From: a virus
DNA: 24,365 nucleotides
Direction: 5' to 3' (one strand)
IMG/VR virus record: IMGVR_UViG_3300042691_008185
Coordinates: 1 to 24,365 of that record
A program made the position numbers and the translations under genes. Shown here piece by piece: positions 2,163 through 19,858 of the stretch (position 1 is its first letter; each line of letters opens with the position of its first letter). Under the pieces are notes generated by a model, which worked only from the letters and a program-made list of their open reading frames with translations, was not told where the DNA came from and did not search any database.

Positions 2163-2474
2163 ATGGGAACAATAATCGGAGCATCAATTTGCCTAGACCA
2201 GATTGACGAAAGCAAAGTAACAATAGCGCAAAACGGAAAGCGCTATTTAAACATTAGTATCGTAGTGAATGACAAGCTAGATAAATATGGTAAGCATGTA
2301 GAACTGTCGCATAGTCAAACTAAAGAAGAGCGTGATTCTAAGGCTAAAAAAAAGTATTTAGGAAGCGGAAATCAGATATGGCCAAAGGTTAACTTAGAAA
2401 GTTGGGACAATTCTCAACCAGTTCAACCAGTTCAAATAGCAGTAGCAAAAAATGATAATGATTTGCCTTTTTAA
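2163..2474 (+). CDS. ssb: Single-stranded DNA-binding protein, phage type
   Basis: The product is a short (103 aa) SSB-like protein. Its C-terminus, DNDLPF, is the acidic hydrophobic tip typical of bacterial SSB (DDDIPF), which recruits partner enzymes. The N-terminal part (about 1-75) is compatible with an OB fold: GASICLDQI, a strand with KRYLNISIVVND, and a basic loop (QTKEERDSKAKKKYLGSGN) before a tryptophan strand. A short Q/P/V linker (SQPVQPVQIAVAK) joins the tip. It starts immediately after the exonuclease stop codon and completes the recombination module. It could protect single strands both in recombination and in phage replication. Confidence 0.8.
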   Translation: MGTIIGASICLDQIDESKVTIAQNGKRYLNISIVVNDKLDKYGKHVELSHSQTKEERDSKAKKKYLGSGNQIWPKVNLESWDNSQPVQPVQIAVAKNDNDLPF

Positions 2475-2475
2475 T

Positions 2476-2505
2476 TTTTTAATTTAAAAAAGTATTTTAT
2501 ATTCG
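2476..2505 (+). promoter_or_regulatory. Candidate promoter for the structured RNA / replication block
   Basis: TATATTCG at 2498-2505 is a one-base variant of the -7 box TAnnTTTG and resembles the -7 box TACATTCG of the promoter at 7442-7449. Eighteen bases upstream lies TTTT (2476-2479) in place of TTTG. A start near 2510 would give an RNA of about 120 nt ending at the terminator at 2584-2630. Confidence 0.45.
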
Positions 2506-2510
2506 CAAAA

Positions 2511-2630
2511 GTTCTTTAAAATTACAATTAGCGATGTGAGCCGACATCAGTTAAAAATATGCGAGAAATCGCACTTACGCAAAGCTCTAATAGGTTGGAC
2601 GGCTCTCCACCTATTGGGGCTTTTGTTTTT
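2511..2630 (+). ncRNA. Predicted structured RNA: small RNA or attenuating leader
   Basis: Three hairpins lie in a gap without coding potential. P1 is GATGT/ACATC (2533-2537 with 2544-2548) and has the 6-base loop GAGCCG. P2 is TGCGA/TCGCA (2560-2573) and has the GNRA loop GAAA. P3 is a 12-bp stem (2584-2595 with 2609-2620, three G-U pairs) with two more pairs above a bulge; its loop (2599-2606) contains CGGCTC. The P1 loop is the exact reverse complement of six P3 loop bases (2600-2605), so a kissing-loop contact is possible. P3 is followed by TTTTGTTTTT. The start codon at 2633 is 2 bases beyond, so the element may act in cis as an attenuator or in trans as a small RNA. I recognise no known RNA family. 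Confidence 0.55.
2584..2630 (+). terminator. Rho-independent terminator just before a start codon
   Basis: A 12-bp stem (2584-2595 with 2609-2620) with a 13-base apical part and a T-rich tail (2621-2630). The A's before the stem (2581-2583) also allow some activity on the other strand. The tail ends 2 bases before the ATG at 2633, so read-through is needed for the downstream replication genes unless they have another promoter. I see none. Confidence 0.7.
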
Positions 2631-2632
2631 AT

Positions 2633-3301
2633 ATGAATAGAGATTCAACTATTTTTTATCGTTCATTTTATGAAGCCATAAAAGAACTACCTGAGCAAAA
2701 TCAGTTAGAGATTTATAATGCCATTTTTGAGCATTCACTTAATCTAAAAAAGCCAGAATTAACTGGATTAAGCAAAACTATCTATACACTTATTGAGCCT
2801 CAAATAGAAGCTAATTTGAAGCGATACACTAACGGAAAGCAACCAAAAAAGAAGCAAGACGAAAGCGAAAAAGAAGCAAAAGCGGAGCAAGATTTAAGCA
2901 AAAGCGGAGCTAATAAGAATAAGAATAAGAATAATAATGAAAATATTAATACTTCTTTAAAAAAGAAGCAAGCGCTTAAACAATTATTTTCTGAATCTAT
3001 TTATGTAGACAAACACAATTTTAAAGAAGCATTACCAGATTGGAATCAAGAAAAGTTAAAGTATTATTATGATTCATTATTAACTTGGTCAAACGAAGGC
3101 AATAGAAAAATTAATTGGATTGCTACGGCACAACAATGGGCTGCAAGAGATGAAAAGTTGGGCAAGTTAAAATTTGAAAGTAAAAGTGAACTACCAACTA
3201 ACTGGATTCATTTGAAACTTACAGACCAACAAAAGAAATTACTAACCAAAGAACAATTAGGAAAATATCAAACACATCAAACTAGATTATCAATGCAATG
3301 A
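2633..3301 (+). CDS. DUF6291-domain protein, probable replication-initiation component
   Basis: Residues 1 to about 70 (IFYRSFYEAIKELPEQNQLEIYNAIFEHSLN...) match the pattern of the DUF6291 domain, which is found at the N-terminus of phage replication proteins in Bacteroidota. A lysine/asparagine-rich low-complexity linker follows (about 78-108). The C-terminal half (YYYDSLLTWSNEGNRKINWIATAQQWAARDE) resembles the C-terminal helices of DnaT/DnaD-like loader proteins. It leads the replication block; its stop codon overlaps the start of the DnaB-N-like gene. A role in loading the split helicase encoded next is inferred. The linker DNA holds a 15-bp direct repeat and three AATAAG hexamers, which could slip during replication. 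Confidence 0.7.
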   Translation: MNRDSTIFYRSFYEAIKELPEQNQLEIYNAIFEHSLNLKKPELTGLSKTIYTLIEPQIEANLKRYTNGKQPKKKQDESEKEAKAEQDLSKSGANKNKNKNNNENINTSLKKKQALKQLFSESIYVDKHNFKEALPDWNQEKLKYYYDSLLTWSNEGNRKINWIATAQQWAARDEKLGKLKFESKSELPTNWIHLKLTDQQKKLLTKEQLGKYQTHQTRLSMQ

Positions 3302-3954
3302 TGGACTTAAAAAACGAAAGAAAAAAGTTAGAGGAATACATCCTTAGTGCTGCAATCTTTGAAAACAAGATAGTGAATGTTCTCAACTTTTTGACTTATA
3401 AAAATTTTACTATTTGGGAAGATTACGATTACCAAGAAGCTTGGGTAATAATTACAACACTTTATAAAGAAAATAGAATCATTGACGTAATGACGTTTTC
3501 TATTGAGTACAAGAAACGCTTTAATAAATCAATCTTTAATCATATTATGGATTTATCAAGTAGAATAGCCAGTACGCAAAATACGCAACACCACGCGGCT
3601 ATATTAGTTCAAATAGACATGACTGATAGATTGGTTGAATTATTGCAATCGTTATCAATGAATCATAACTTGCCAGAATCCGAAAGAATAGACTTTAAAA
3701 ATACATCTATTGATTTGCAAGGCTATAAGATAGATGTGTTTGATGCTAAAGACGCTTTACTTAAAATGATATTACACAAGAATTATTCAGATGTTGCTGC
3801 CAAACAAATAAACAAATACGCGGAATTAATGAATAAAAAAGTAGATAATATCAGAAGAAATGAAACTAAAATTGCTTTAATTGCAAACCTTAGATGTCTA
3901 TGTATATCAGAAAAAGCTAAATACTTATTAATGCAATTAGAATCAGAAATATGA
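3298..3954 (+). CDS. DnaB N-terminal-domain-like protein without ATPase domain
   Basis: The first about 115 residues follow the pattern of the DnaB helicase N-terminal domain: a start helix with EEYILSAAIFE, then L..KNF....DYDYQEAWVIITTLYKENRIIDVMTFSIEY, then DLSSRIASTQNTQHHAAILVQ. In DnaB this domain binds primase and forms the collar of the ring. No Walker motif follows; the C-terminal 100 residues are helical and unassigned. The next gene supplies an ATPase domain and overlaps by 4 bases (ATGA). The pair therefore looks like a replicative helicase split in two, or a loader-like domain plus ATPase. The double ATG at 3298 makes the exact start uncertain by one codon. Confidence 0.6.
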   Translation: MMDLKNERKKLEEYILSAAIFENKIVNVLNFLTYKNFTIWEDYDYQEAWVIITTLYKENRIIDVMTFSIEYKKRFNKSIFNHIMDLSSRIASTQNTQHHAAILVQIDMTDRLVELLQSLSMNHNLPESERIDFKNTSIDLQGYKIDVFDAKDALLKMILHKNYSDVAAKQINKYAELMNKKVDNIRRNETKIALIANLRCLCISEKAKYLLMQLESEI

Positions 3955-4850
3955 GTGAATTTTTAAAGTACCTAGCTATTGAAGAACCAATAGTTAAACC
4001 TATAACAGAAAACCAAAAAAAGTTAGAAGCGGCATTCGTAGATATTACAAAAAAGATTGAGTTTCCACCTTTAGCAATTTCAATAGGTTCACATTATCTT
4101 GGAGGTACCAATTATCCAACTGCATTTGCAACATATGGAAACTTTAGTGCGTTAATGGCTCCATCTAAAGCAAGAAAATCATTCTTTAAAAGTTTACTAG
4201 TTTCAGCATACATTGGAGGCAATGCAAATCAATTCACTACATCAATAAAATCTCACAAATCAAAAGGCGGTTATATCTTAGATTTTGATACAGAGCAAAG
4301 CAGATTTCATGCTCAAAATGTATTTAAGAGAGTGATACCAATGACAGGCTCAAACCCTGACAATTATAAACCATTTGCATTGAGAGAATTTTCATCAACA
4401 GAAAGAGTAGAGATAATAGAAACAGCTATTTATTCAAGTGAGTATTCAGATAATATTGACTTTATAATTATTGATGGTATTGCGGATTTAATTAAGGATG
4501 TAAACGACATCAAAGAATCAACAATGATTATTGAAAAGTTGATGAGATGGACATCAGATAAAAGATGCCACATTTTAAATGTCATCCACACTAACCCTGG
4601 AACTAATAAACCAAAAGGTCATTTAGGTACTTTTATCATGCAGAAAGCAGAGACAGTATCGCGATTAGAATACATTGACGAAAAGCAAACAAAGATTGAG
4701 TTTCCTTTTACTCGAAATTATCCAATACAAGATTTGATTATGGAAATAAATGATGAAGGACTTCCTTTTATAGTTGGAGAGCAATTAAATATGATTCAAG
4801 AATCAATTACTATTCAACCTAATACTAACTTTGAATACGAACCATTTTGA
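3951..4850 (+). CDS. RecA/AAA_25-like ATPase, probable replicative helicase subunit
   Basis: The product (299 aa) resembles RepA/AAA_25-type RecA-fold ATPases. Residues 64-80 (NFSALMAPSKARKSFFK) occupy the Walker A place but read A-P-S-K-A-R-K-S rather than GxxxxGK[ST]: the final Lys-Ser is kept and the glycines are lost. A strand with acidic residues follows (ILDFDTEQSRFHAQNVF, 109-125). The Walker B is FIIIDGIADL (171-180, Asp175). A sensor-like segment reads HILNVIHTNPGTNKPKGHLG. Position after a DnaB-N-like protein and overlap by ATGA argue for a helicase role in phage replication. ATP hydrolysis with the altered P-loop is not certain. Confidence 0.72.
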   Translation: MSEFLKYLAIEEPIVKPITENQKKLEAAFVDITKKIEFPPLAISIGSHYLGGTNYPTAFATYGNFSALMAPSKARKSFFKSLLVSAYIGGNANQFTTSIKSHKSKGGYILDFDTEQSRFHAQNVFKRVIPMTGSNPDNYKPFALREFSSTERVEIIETAIYSSEYSDNIDFIIIDGIADLIKDVNDIKESTMIIEKLMRWTSDKRCHILNVIHTNPGTNKPKGHLGTFIMQKAETVSRLEYIDEKQTKIEFPFTRNYPIQDLIMEINDEGLPFIVGEQLNMIQESITIQPNTNFEYEPF

Positions 4851-15956: not shown

Positions 15957-17257
15957 CAAAGTTTGAAAAGTTCCTTGAAGTAAAAGGAATCACATCGGCT
16001 CAATTTGCCGATAAAAGTGCCGAAGATATGGCAGGGTTATACAATGAGTATAACGATGCAACTACTAAGGCATTAGAGGAAGCAGTATCGAAAAGCGCAA
16101 GCAAAGAGGATATTGAGTCTTTAAAGAGTGAAATTGCAGAGGCTCAAAAAGAGCAGATGAAGCAATTGAACGCTACATTAAAGCAGTATGGTTTAGCTAT
16201 CGAAAAGTTAAACAAGAACAATGTTGACAGAAGCTTATCTAGCAATGCATCTTCAATCAAAGAAGCGTTATCTAGCGAAGAAAACAAAGCTAAATTAAGC
16301 GCATTGAAAGGTCTTAACAAAGGTAGCGCAGAGCAATCAGGCATTACTTTTGAGATTAAAGCAGCAGGAACGATGTTAGAATCAACTAACATTTCAGGTG
16401 GTAACGTACCAGTTGAGCAACGTATCGCAGGTCTTAACTTAATCGCTACACGCCGTGTTCGTTTGATGGACTTATTCGCTAAGGGCGCAGCTAGTTCAAA
16501 CATCATCTCATGGGTATATCAAGCTAACCGCGATGGTTCAGCAGGTGGAACAGCAGAAGGTGACACTAAGAACCAAATCGATTTTGACTTAGTAGTGGCT
16601 TCGCAAGCAGTTGTTAAGCGTACAGCTTTCATCAAAGTATCAACAGAAATGTTAGATGATATCGACTTTATCGAGTCTGAAATCCGTAACGAGTTGTTGA
16701 GATTGTTATTGTTAGATGTTGAAGGTACTTCATATTCAGGTAATGGAACAGCGCCAGCAATGAATGGAATCCGTACGGTTGCAACAGCATTCGCAGCGGG
16801 AACATTTGCAGCGACAGTTGACAATGCAAACGAAGCAGACGTATTAACGGTTGCAATGAACCAAATCGCATTGGCAAATCAAGAAGCACCAAACGCTATC
16901 TTGATGAATCCAAGTGACATCACTAAGTTGAAGCTTTACAAAGTGTCGGCTACTGACAGACGTTACATTGACAGATTAATGTTCATCGGAGAAACTCTAA
17001 CTTTGGATGGCGTTCCAATGATTGCAACTACATTAGTGACTGCAGGTACTTACTTAGTAGGTAATTTCAACATGGCTACATTGTACCAAAAAGAAGCGGT
17101 AACAATCAACATGGGTCTTGATGGTAATGACTGGACTAAGAACTTGCGTACAATCATTGCAGAGTGGAGAGGTGCATTAGTAACTAAGAACAATGACAGA
17201 ACAGCATTTGTAAAAGGTACATTTGCGACTGACATTGCAGCATTAGAAACAGCTTAA
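15953..17257 (+). CDS. Major capsid protein, HK97 fold
   Basis: The product (434 aa) has an N-terminal coiled-coil delta/scaffold-like region (about 30-105, rich in E, K, A, Q) followed by the HK97-type capsid core. The core includes SGGNVPVEQRIAGLNL, ATRRVRLMDLF, KVSTEMLDDIDFIESEIRNELLR (spine helix), DVEGTSYSGNGTAPAMNGI and ILMNPSDITKLKLYK. It ends in GALVTKNNDRTAFVKG. The protease gene directly before it probably removes the delta region. Codon choice is the least AT-rich of the window, as expected for a highly expressed structural gene. Confidence 0.92.
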   Translation: MTKFEKFLEVKGITSAQFADKSAEDMAGLYNEYNDATTKALEEAVSKSASKEDIESLKSEIAEAQKEQMKQLNATLKQYGLAIEKLNKNNVDRSLSSNASSIKEALSSEENKAKLSALKGLNKGSAEQSGITFEIKAAGTMLESTNISGGNVPVEQRIAGLNLIATRRVRLMDLFAKGAASSNIISWVYQANRDGSAGGTAEGDTKNQIDFDLVVASQAVVKRTAFIKVSTEMLDDIDFIESEIRNELLRLLLLDVEGTSYSGNGTAPAMNGIRTVATAFAAGTFAATVDNANEADVLTVAMNQIALANQEAPNAILMNPSDITKLKLYKVSATDRRYIDRLMFIGETLTLDGVPMIATTLVTAGTYLVGNFNMATLYQKEAVTINMGLDGNDWTKNLRTIIAEWRGALVTKNNDRTAFVKGTFATDIAALETA

Positions 17258-18652: not shown

Positions 18653-19612
18653 ATGAGTGCATTATGTTCTTGCGGTGTAAGCTTACAAAATACAGGCACA
18701 CCGAATTGCATTCCAGTATTTGGAGTGACAAAACAACTGATTCTCGTTCCATTAATTGCGAACGATGGAACAGAAAATTCAATAGACCCGACAGACACTT
18801 TAGATAGTGCTTATGTAACGGCGTTGATAAATCAAGCAGACGATTCAAAGAGATGGTATCCTGTAGGCCCATTGAAGAATGTTGCTGGTGAGCGTGCTGA
18901 TGCGTTGATGGAAACTTTCGAAGATGGTTCAAAGGTATTCATCCGTCAAGGTGTTAGAAGCTTTACAGGCTTAGTTCTTAAAGGCGGTCCAGAGTTACTC
19001 AATCAGTTAAACTCAAACAGATGTTCATCGTTTGGGGCTTACATGATTGACTCAAATGGATCGTTGTACGGAAAAGTAAAGAATGACGATGGTATGCTTT
19101 ATCCTGTAGAGATACAAGCTGATTCATTCTACAACAAGTTGATGTTTACCACCGACACTACTATTCAAAAGATTATGATTTCTTTTGAGTTTGGTATCGA
19201 CGAAAAAGACGAAGACTTGAGAATGATTTTATCTTCATCATTTACAGGGGTAAATCTTGCGAATGTGAAAGGTTTGATTAACACTTACTACAAAGGTGTA
19301 GCAATCGGAACAACGTCAATCGTAGTTGATATTTTCAACAAGTATGGTGACTTTGTAAATGGTTCACCAGTTGAGGGATTACAGACCGCTGACTTTGTTA
19401 GTTCTGATTCAGCAACTACCGGTAAGGTGTATGACATCACAGATAATTCTGATGTTACAATTTCTTCTGTAGCTGAAAGCACAACTCAATTAGGTAGATA
19501 CACACTTTCAATGTCAAGTGGCATCACAGTTGGTGATGACTTACAGATTCTTGTAAAGAAGAATGGCCTTGATGGTAGTACTATGTTGGGTACTATTGTT
19601 ACCGCAGTTTAA
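18653..19612 (+). CDS. Probable major tail tube protein
   Basis: The 319-residue product starts with a cysteine-bearing segment (CSCGVSLQNTGTPNC, 5-19) that I associate with conserved proteins of Bacteroidota phages. A strand-rich body follows (RWYPVGPLKNVAGERADALMETFEDG; FIRQGVRSFTGLVLKGGPELL). The last 100 residues look like an added Ig-like domain (TSIVVDIFNKYGDFVNGSPVEGL...GRYTLSMSSGI). Position between joining gene and tape measure, size, and a strong terminator behind it support the main tail tube subunit. Confidence 0.65.
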   Translation: MSALCSCGVSLQNTGTPNCIPVFGVTKQLILVPLIANDGTENSIDPTDTLDSAYVTALINQADDSKRWYPVGPLKNVAGERADALMETFEDGSKVFIRQGVRSFTGLVLKGGPELLNQLNSNRCSSFGAYMIDSNGSLYGKVKNDDGMLYPVEIQADSFYNKLMFTTDTTIQKIMISFEFGIDEKDEDLRMILSSSFTGVNLANVKGLINTYYKGVAIGTTSIVVDIFNKYGDFVNGSPVEGLQTADFVSSDSATTGKVYDITDNSDVTISSVAESTTQLGRYTLSMSSGITVGDDLQILVKKNGLDGSTMLGTIVTAV

Positions 19613-19640
19613 AGATGTTTCTGATAGTTTGATTTGTTTG

Positions 19641-19673
19641 AAAGCCCTTGCAGAAATGTGAGGGCTTTTTTTT
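19641..19673 (+). terminator. Rho-independent terminator after the tail tube gene
   Basis: AAAGCCCT (19641-19648) pairs with AGGGCTTT (19661-19668) around a 12-base loop, and eight T's run from 19666 to 19673. The last T is also the first base of the next -7 box. It would set high expression of upstream structural genes apart from the genes that follow. Confidence 0.85.
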
Positions 19674-19680
19674 ATATTTG
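19673..19680 (+). promoter_or_regulatory. -7 box directly behind the terminator
   Basis: TATATTTG matches TAnnTTTG and ends 4 bases before the ATG at 19685 (TATATTTGCAGCATG). No clear TTTG is at the usual -33 spacing. It predicts a near-leaderless mRNA for the tail-assembly genes. Confidence 0.5.
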
Positions 19681-19684
19681 CAGC

Positions 19685-19858
19685 ATGGATAATCGCAAAA
19701 TGATAACTATTGACGGCTATAAGTTTGAAGTCAATACAATAGGAAAATACACAGAAAATCAGTTTCGTGAGGCGTTTAAGGACTTACCAAACTTTCATTG
19801 GCAAAATGCGTACAGACAAATCAAGAAAGAGTTTGCTAAGTTGAATGTGGAGTCTTGA
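19685..19858 (+). CDS. Small tail-region hypothetical protein (57 aa)
   Basis: I place the start at ATG 19685, directly after the -7 box. An in-frame TTG at 19634 would read through the terminator hairpin and is not credible. The product (MDNRKMITIDGYKFEVN...) has a short strand pair, then ENQFREAFKDLPNFHWQNAYRQIKKEF, a helical region with aromatic residues. Function unknown. It overlaps the next gene by 14 bases. Confidence 0.65.
   Translation: MDNRKMITIDGYKFEVNTIGKYTENQFREAFKDLPNFHWQNAYRQIKKEFAKLNVES

Follow-up and report, generated by a model that had tools for sequence, protein, structure and literature searches.

The window, a virus record of 24,365 bases, carries genes for ERF, a YqaJ-like exonuclease, DUF6291, a DnaB-N-like protein, a RecA/RepA-like AAA protein and NinG, followed by terminase and portal genes, and by this gene content it is a tailed phage of the Flavobacterium type. 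In blastn the stretch coding for the AAA ATPase matches a Flavobacterium phage DNA primase/helicase gene, and the large terminase subunit is of an ordinary type. The structured leader RNA analysed here is located between the small ORF phrog_24909 and the DUF6291 gene (Table 1).

Table 1. Features of the leader RNA locus in the window, with the basis for each assignment.
Feature	Position	Strand	Basis or remark
Gene phrog_24909, function not assigned	2163..2474	+	Small ORF upstream of the RNA
Promoter-like box TATATTCG	2498..2505	+	Bacteroidota -7 type TAnnTTTG, one mismatch
Structured leader RNA, putative terminated small RNA, ~120 nt	2511..2630	+	Fold z -4.6 to -4.7; covariation in relatives
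Hairpin P1, presents E1	2533..2548	+	In MFE; GATGT 2533-2537 / ACATC 2544-2548
E1, P1 loop GAGCCG, complementary to E2	2538..2543	+	Sequence; differing loops at the same position in relatives
Hairpin P2, TGCGA-GAAA-TCGCA, GNRA tetraloop, optional	2560..2573	+	MFE; presence varies among relatives
Intrinsic terminator, hairpin 2581-2623 plus T-rich tract	2581..2630	+	Sequence, MFE, stem pairing in class I
E2, terminator apical loop CGGCTC, predicted kissing partner of E1	2600..2605	+	Fully complementary to E1
DUF6291 gene, first gene past the terminator	2633..3301	+	Pfam PF19808, E 2.4e-16
DnaB N-terminal-like replication gene	3298..3954	+	PF00772, E 4.9e-5
AAA ATPase, RepA/helicase-like	3951..4850	+	PF13481, E 3.5e-6

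The three hairpins and both loops proposed in the first-pass annotation were borne out by the sequence and by the minimum free energy (MFE) structure, which contains all three hairpins. The MFE of the 120 nt is -38.9 kcal/mol compared with -22.8 ± 3.5 kcal/mol for shuffled sequences (z -4.64; 0 of 200 shuffles as good), and a slightly longer stretch around the RNA gives a z of -4.69. The terminator is built from the arms AAAGCTCTAATAGGT (2581-2595) and ACCTATTGGGGCTTT (2609-2623), with GGA (2597-2599) and TCC (2606-2608) forming its cap, and this stable hairpin is followed by a T-rich tract at 2620-2630, as in an intrinsic terminator. Only 2 nt separate the tract from the ATG, and with the promoter-like box upstream the locus may be an attenuator or leader. 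The -7 consensus box of Bacteroidota promoters is TAnnTTTG; the box in the window is only a fair match to it, a clear -33 box is not present, and two relatives of the locus (L005 and L006) display TATTATTG/TATTTTTG at the same position. From this anatomy, a small RNA of about 110-120 nt is expected. The complementarity of E1 and E2 had been pointed out before and is complete; the chance of a fully Watson-Crick match between two 6-nt loops is about 1 in 4096.

A second copy of the RNA in the window was considered at 19610-19670, where a weak E1/E2-like match contains two G-U pairs and P1 is missing; it was judged to be an ordinary terminator, and the match is probably due to chance. This terminator (AAGCCCTT...GAGGGCTT, within 19610-19690) is immediately followed by the promoter-like box TATATTTG and an ATG.

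At the same locus in the relatives L005, L006 and L125, the gene order upstream and downstream as well as the terminator stem (CTATTGGGGCTTT) are as in the window, while the loops differ. The terminator stem is 100% paired in the four class I sequences, and P1 is maintained in the relatives with a compensatory A-U/U-A change. E1/E2 reads GGGCAT/ATGCCC in L006 and GTGGTAG/CTACCAC in L005 and L125, and the L005 contig has one more RNA (L126), located before a helicase-methylase gene, that carries GTGCGAG/CTCGCAC with E1 presented by the hairpin ATCAT/ATGAT. All of these are perfect Watson-Crick pairs, giving four different ones in class I. As the set is small and MAFFT misregistered loops of unequal length (45.8% for the loop pair), the pairs were read directly by eye. 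Two earlier proposals stood only in part. GCTC is found at 2584-2587 in the 5' arm of the terminator, as had been claimed, but its alternative pairing with E1 is not conserved and cannot be formed by L006 (arm AAAGTCTC, loop GGGCAT) or L005 (arm AAAGCTCT, loop GTGGTAG). Likewise, the GNRA hairpin P2 lies where it had been placed and has a counterpart in L006 that shows a compensating change, but P2 is absent from L005 and L125 and hence not conserved.

The DUF6291 N-terminal domain is of the type MENRKAFNFYRSYYETG in L006 (4259-4909) and L125 (1963-2634) and of the type MNRDSTIFYRSFYEAI in L005 (726-1409) and the window. Since the C-terminal halves of the L005 and L006 proteins are nearly identical, this indicates a domain swap directly behind the RNA that is unlinked to the loop type. 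The RNA is missing next to distant relatives of the upstream gene, showing that it is not bound to that gene.

The same RNA plan with other sequences was found at relatives of the DUF6291 gene. To collect class II, a DNA pattern was derived from the inner loop, excluding E1, E2 and the promoter, and nearly all of the 61 contigs that it fetched carry the leader RNA. In this subset, which is unbiased for E1 and E2, 40 of 41 distinct sequences pair at 9/9 positions, using 10 different pairs. In alignment A2, comprising 48 distinct class II RNAs and including the relatives found via DUF6291, 97.8% of the cells over the 28 pairs of the whole structure are paired, compared with 31-52% in slid controls and with 0 of 500 shuffles reaching this value. 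Within A2 the E1:E2 helix has 99.1% of its cells paired and changes on both sides at 6 of its 9 pairs, the most variable of which is CG in 18, UA in 18, GC in 7 and AU in 5 sequences. E1:E2 also covaries in class III (n = 9; 97.5% paired) and class IV (n = 8; 64/64 cells paired). The loop-loop helix expected of a kissing loop or pseudoknot is therefore backed by compensatory changes in classes II, III and IV, and the pairing suggested by the window is backed by its homologues. Strong compensatory changes, whose absence had been named in advance as the observation that would speak against the structure, were thus found in classes I to IV.

E1 lies in a loop in the hairpin classes, whereas in class II it forms the first nucleotides after the promoter-like box. 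E2 is placed inside the terminator hairpin in all classes and leaves the outer stem unused, so that E1:E2 pairing can coexist with the terminator, and the distance from E1 to the terminator is mostly 21-45 nt, which makes pairing in cis possible. In nearly all class II members ATGAAAA follows directly after E1 (e.g., L163:7584-7692). A class II leader peptide was considered and rejected, because the reading frame, its length and its stop vary among members, one of which has only 4 codons before the stop; no peptide is conserved. The leader of a Bacteroidetes MAG (L087, ~1180-1290) contains two separate complementary pairs, GCAACAAAAC/GTTTTGTTGC and TTCACAGATGAA/TTCATTTGTGAG.

The variable pair changes far more than the rest of the RNA. 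Among class II RNAs with scaffolds at least 95% identical, E1 differs on average at 2.9 of 9 sites where 0.22 would be expected, almost always with compensation, and E1 types differ even though the downstream genes are 85-95% identical. In the IIb subset the outer stem varies by 0.07-0.11 compared with 0.39 for the variable element, and the inner loop UUGCCA...CCUUUG has zero diversity. Such a pattern suggests that new self-matching pairs are selected for, or that whole RNAs are exchanged within a pool of types, and the 5' element looks like a diversifying self-specificity code. All six phages with two copies (L140, L163, L195, L045, the L005/L126 contig and Gundel_1) carry different pairs in the two, which is weak evidence, as about 11% identity is expected by chance. 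Class II RNAs are often found at a mosaic boundary (L164/L165, L143/L192, L159/L192), with one side about 90% or more identical and the other showing no relationship, and recombination may use the conserved scaffold as a joint.

The RNA was found in dozens of Bacteroidota-type phage contigs. With the class II covariance model, 1 of 395 Bacteroidia genomes was matched, in a search whose stricter filters lose weak matches. By this distribution, the leader RNA is mainly a phage element. The sole genomic match (L197, 1501-1607) is a class II RNA with the pair GCTTATTCG/CGGATAAGC, situated between a gene for the large terminase subunit and an HNH gene. Searching viral contigs with a DNA pattern containing the window's own loops gave no match, as expected for a hypervariable pair, and blastn of the window RNA against phages returned A/T-rich noise only. 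On the phage contig L041 a DUF805b RNA (RF02914, 41.4 bits) at 2084-2116 precedes the leader RNA by about 900 nt.

In most RNAs an ATG follows within a few to about 25 nt of the terminator, leaving no room for another promoter, and class II has a TAnn[TA]T[TC]G box 12 nt upstream of E1. The genes behind the RNA encode DUF6291, SNF2 helicase-methylase, DUF1376, DUF4326, HNH, Phg_2220_C/HTH, a replication protein, an antirepressor or small ORFs, mostly with a role in DNA metabolism. Since the gene behind it differs, the RNA is not tied to DUF6291 genes. A cultivated carrier is the Tenacibaculum phage Gundel_1 (MT732474), whose two copies have different pairs: GTAGGATTC/GAATCCTAC lies directly before the gene at 16,904 annotated as replication protein, and GCTCTCAC/GTGAGAGC lies before the antirepressor gene at 34,015. 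This phage is listed among lytic flavophages with 0 integrases (PMC8776804).

With Rfam 15 at the gathering threshold, no family, including isrK and C4, was found at the RNA in the window or at 36 relative loci, and relaxed thresholds gave chance-level matches only (e.g., rliA with 18 bits where 50 are needed). The literature, covered chiefly outside subscription journals, yielded no description of a promoter-proximal 5' element with a partner in the terminator loop and a hypervariable, compensated pair, and the RNA is apparently undescribed. The nearest working parallels are IsrK and the P4 CI RNA (PMC4825925), and C4 of phages P1 and P7 (PMC12197685). IsrK of the Salmonella prophage Gifsy-1 is likewise a phage leader with its own promoter, yielding a short terminated RNA and a read-through mRNA from one promoter, with RNA-RNA pairing between the two forms (PMC4825925). 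Unlike the RNA described here, which has no Rfam isrK match, it is prophage-borne and acts on translation, and it is not described as having a self-complementary hypervariable loop pair. The CI RNA of satellite phage P4 shares the untranslated leader before replication genes, the complementary segments in one transcript (seqA and seqC) and control by premature termination, but it arises by processing from the region between seqA and seqC, and its role is in lysogenic immunity (PMC4825925). In the RNA described here, by contrast, it is the 5' element and the terminator loop themselves that are complementary, and the phages appear to be virulent: neither PF00589 nor PF00239 integrases occur in any of 26 RNA-bearing records, several of which may be fragments, while a P4-type system belongs to a temperate or plasmid-forming element with a lysogenic state. 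The C4 antisense RNA resembles the RNA in its complementary loops, its sequence-based heteroimmunity and its control of an antirepressor gene, such a gene also following one Gundel_1 copy; it differs in blocking the ribosome site of the ant mRNA, whereas here the complement lies in the RNA's own terminator (PMC12197685).

Taken together, sequence and covariation indicate that the leader RNA is real and widespread, being either an RNA switch or a self-recognition tag. Our preferred reading, to which we assign a probability of roughly 0.6, is a promoter-proximal attenuator of an early/replication operon, in which the 5' element clamps the RNA's own terminator. Transcription would start between a few nt (class II) and about 25 nt (window) before E1, and most transcripts would end at the terminator as a stable RNA of about 110-120 nt with a kissing or pseudoknot fold. 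As the terminator abuts the start codon, the downstream genes would be made by read-through only. The gating of replication genes proposed at first reading is accordingly plausible, because the RNA ends at a terminator directly before them and no room is left for another promoter. As sequence and covariation show, E1 pairs with E2 inside the terminator hairpin, and the pair changes wholly between relatives yet remains complementary. In every class the terminator stem can form alongside this pairing. Its most likely effect is therefore to clamp and stabilise the terminated form, not to block termination, and a mutually exclusive antiterminator is unlikely. The variable pair would have a specificity function, its hypervariability being best explained by selection for each copy recognising only itself. 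A purely structural helix could drift as well, although the same RNA shows hardly any variation in its outer stem. The terminated RNA may further act in trans on leaders of its type that are still being transcribed, and so give feedback on copy number or let co-infecting virulent phages exclude one another; this trans step is the least certain part of the mechanism.

A trans-acting immunity or feedback system like P4 CI RNA or IsrK, in which the terminated RNA uses E1 or E2 to pair with same-type leaders, either nascent or read-through, forces termination or alters translation, and thereby sets immunity or incompatibility groups, is a tentative alternative. It would account for a pair that is hypervariable yet compensated on a conserved scaffold, for nearly identical genes preceded by different types, and for the display of E1 in the P1 loop, as in antisense kissing RNAs; the antirepressor gene in Gundel_1 and the IsrK and P4 precedents (PMC4825925) point the same way. 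However, with E1 and E2 in one RNA the spacing permits pairing in cis, and apart from the RNA itself no target sites occur in the loci. The missing integrases in the 26 records, several of which may be fragments, and the lytic lifestyle of Gundel_1 make classic lysogenic immunity unlikely.

It is unlikely that the RNA is an independent small RNA with host or phage mRNAs elsewhere as targets, in which E1:E2 would do no more than protect the ends and the place before genes would merely reflect compact phage genomes. Although it has its own promoter-like box and terminator and sits before differing genes, any gene behind it needs read-through of the terminator, and a conserved target would forbid free change of the seed. 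Moreover, the phage loci show no enrichment of the E1 and E2 words at other sites when the perfect self-complement is left out of the count.

Even less probable is a riboregulator sensing a ligand or protein through the class II inner loop, with E1:E2 as a variable structural helix. The absence of diversity in this loop in the IIb subset would fit, but the loop is not common to classes I, III and IV, fold details differ between classes and the downstream genes do not form one pathway.

The phi29 pRNA is an RNA of the packaging motor that self-associates through kissing loops. GOLLD/ROOL RNAs are also phage-associated and engage in kissing loops or self-association, although these are large (PMC12286853). 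A comparable self-assembly, with E1 kissing E2 of the next molecule, is suggested by two mutually complementary, covarying loops in one RNA, but we regard it as highly improbable: the RNA described here is small, has a promoter and is tied to a terminator at the start of replication and other genes, its linkers have sufficient length for E1 and E2 to pair in cis, and it matches no Rfam family, Phage_pRNA included, in a phage whose terminase is ordinary. Finally, terminators are common, 6-nt matches arise by chance in 100 nt and the window pair alone is not outstanding under a free search, a test too permissive for single cases and replaced here by class-wise tests, but the covariation across four classes refutes an ordinary terminator with a chance loop match.

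The RNA would add a widespread family, absent from Rfam 15, to the phages of Bacteroidota, whose replication regulation is hardly known, and its compensated hypervariable pair constitutes a clean natural experiment on RNA-RNA specificity. As a cultivated lytic phage with two copies, Gundel_1 makes the RNA testable now. We raise only with reserve the idea that virulent Bacteroidota phages possess an RNA-only self/non-self code, in which leaders would recognise only their own type in trans and replication genes would be held back by phage copy number or by a same-type phage infecting the same cell. If the trans action is true, lytic phages would have an incompatibility system with several independent channels per genome, which would also offer a ready set of orthogonal RNA regulators.
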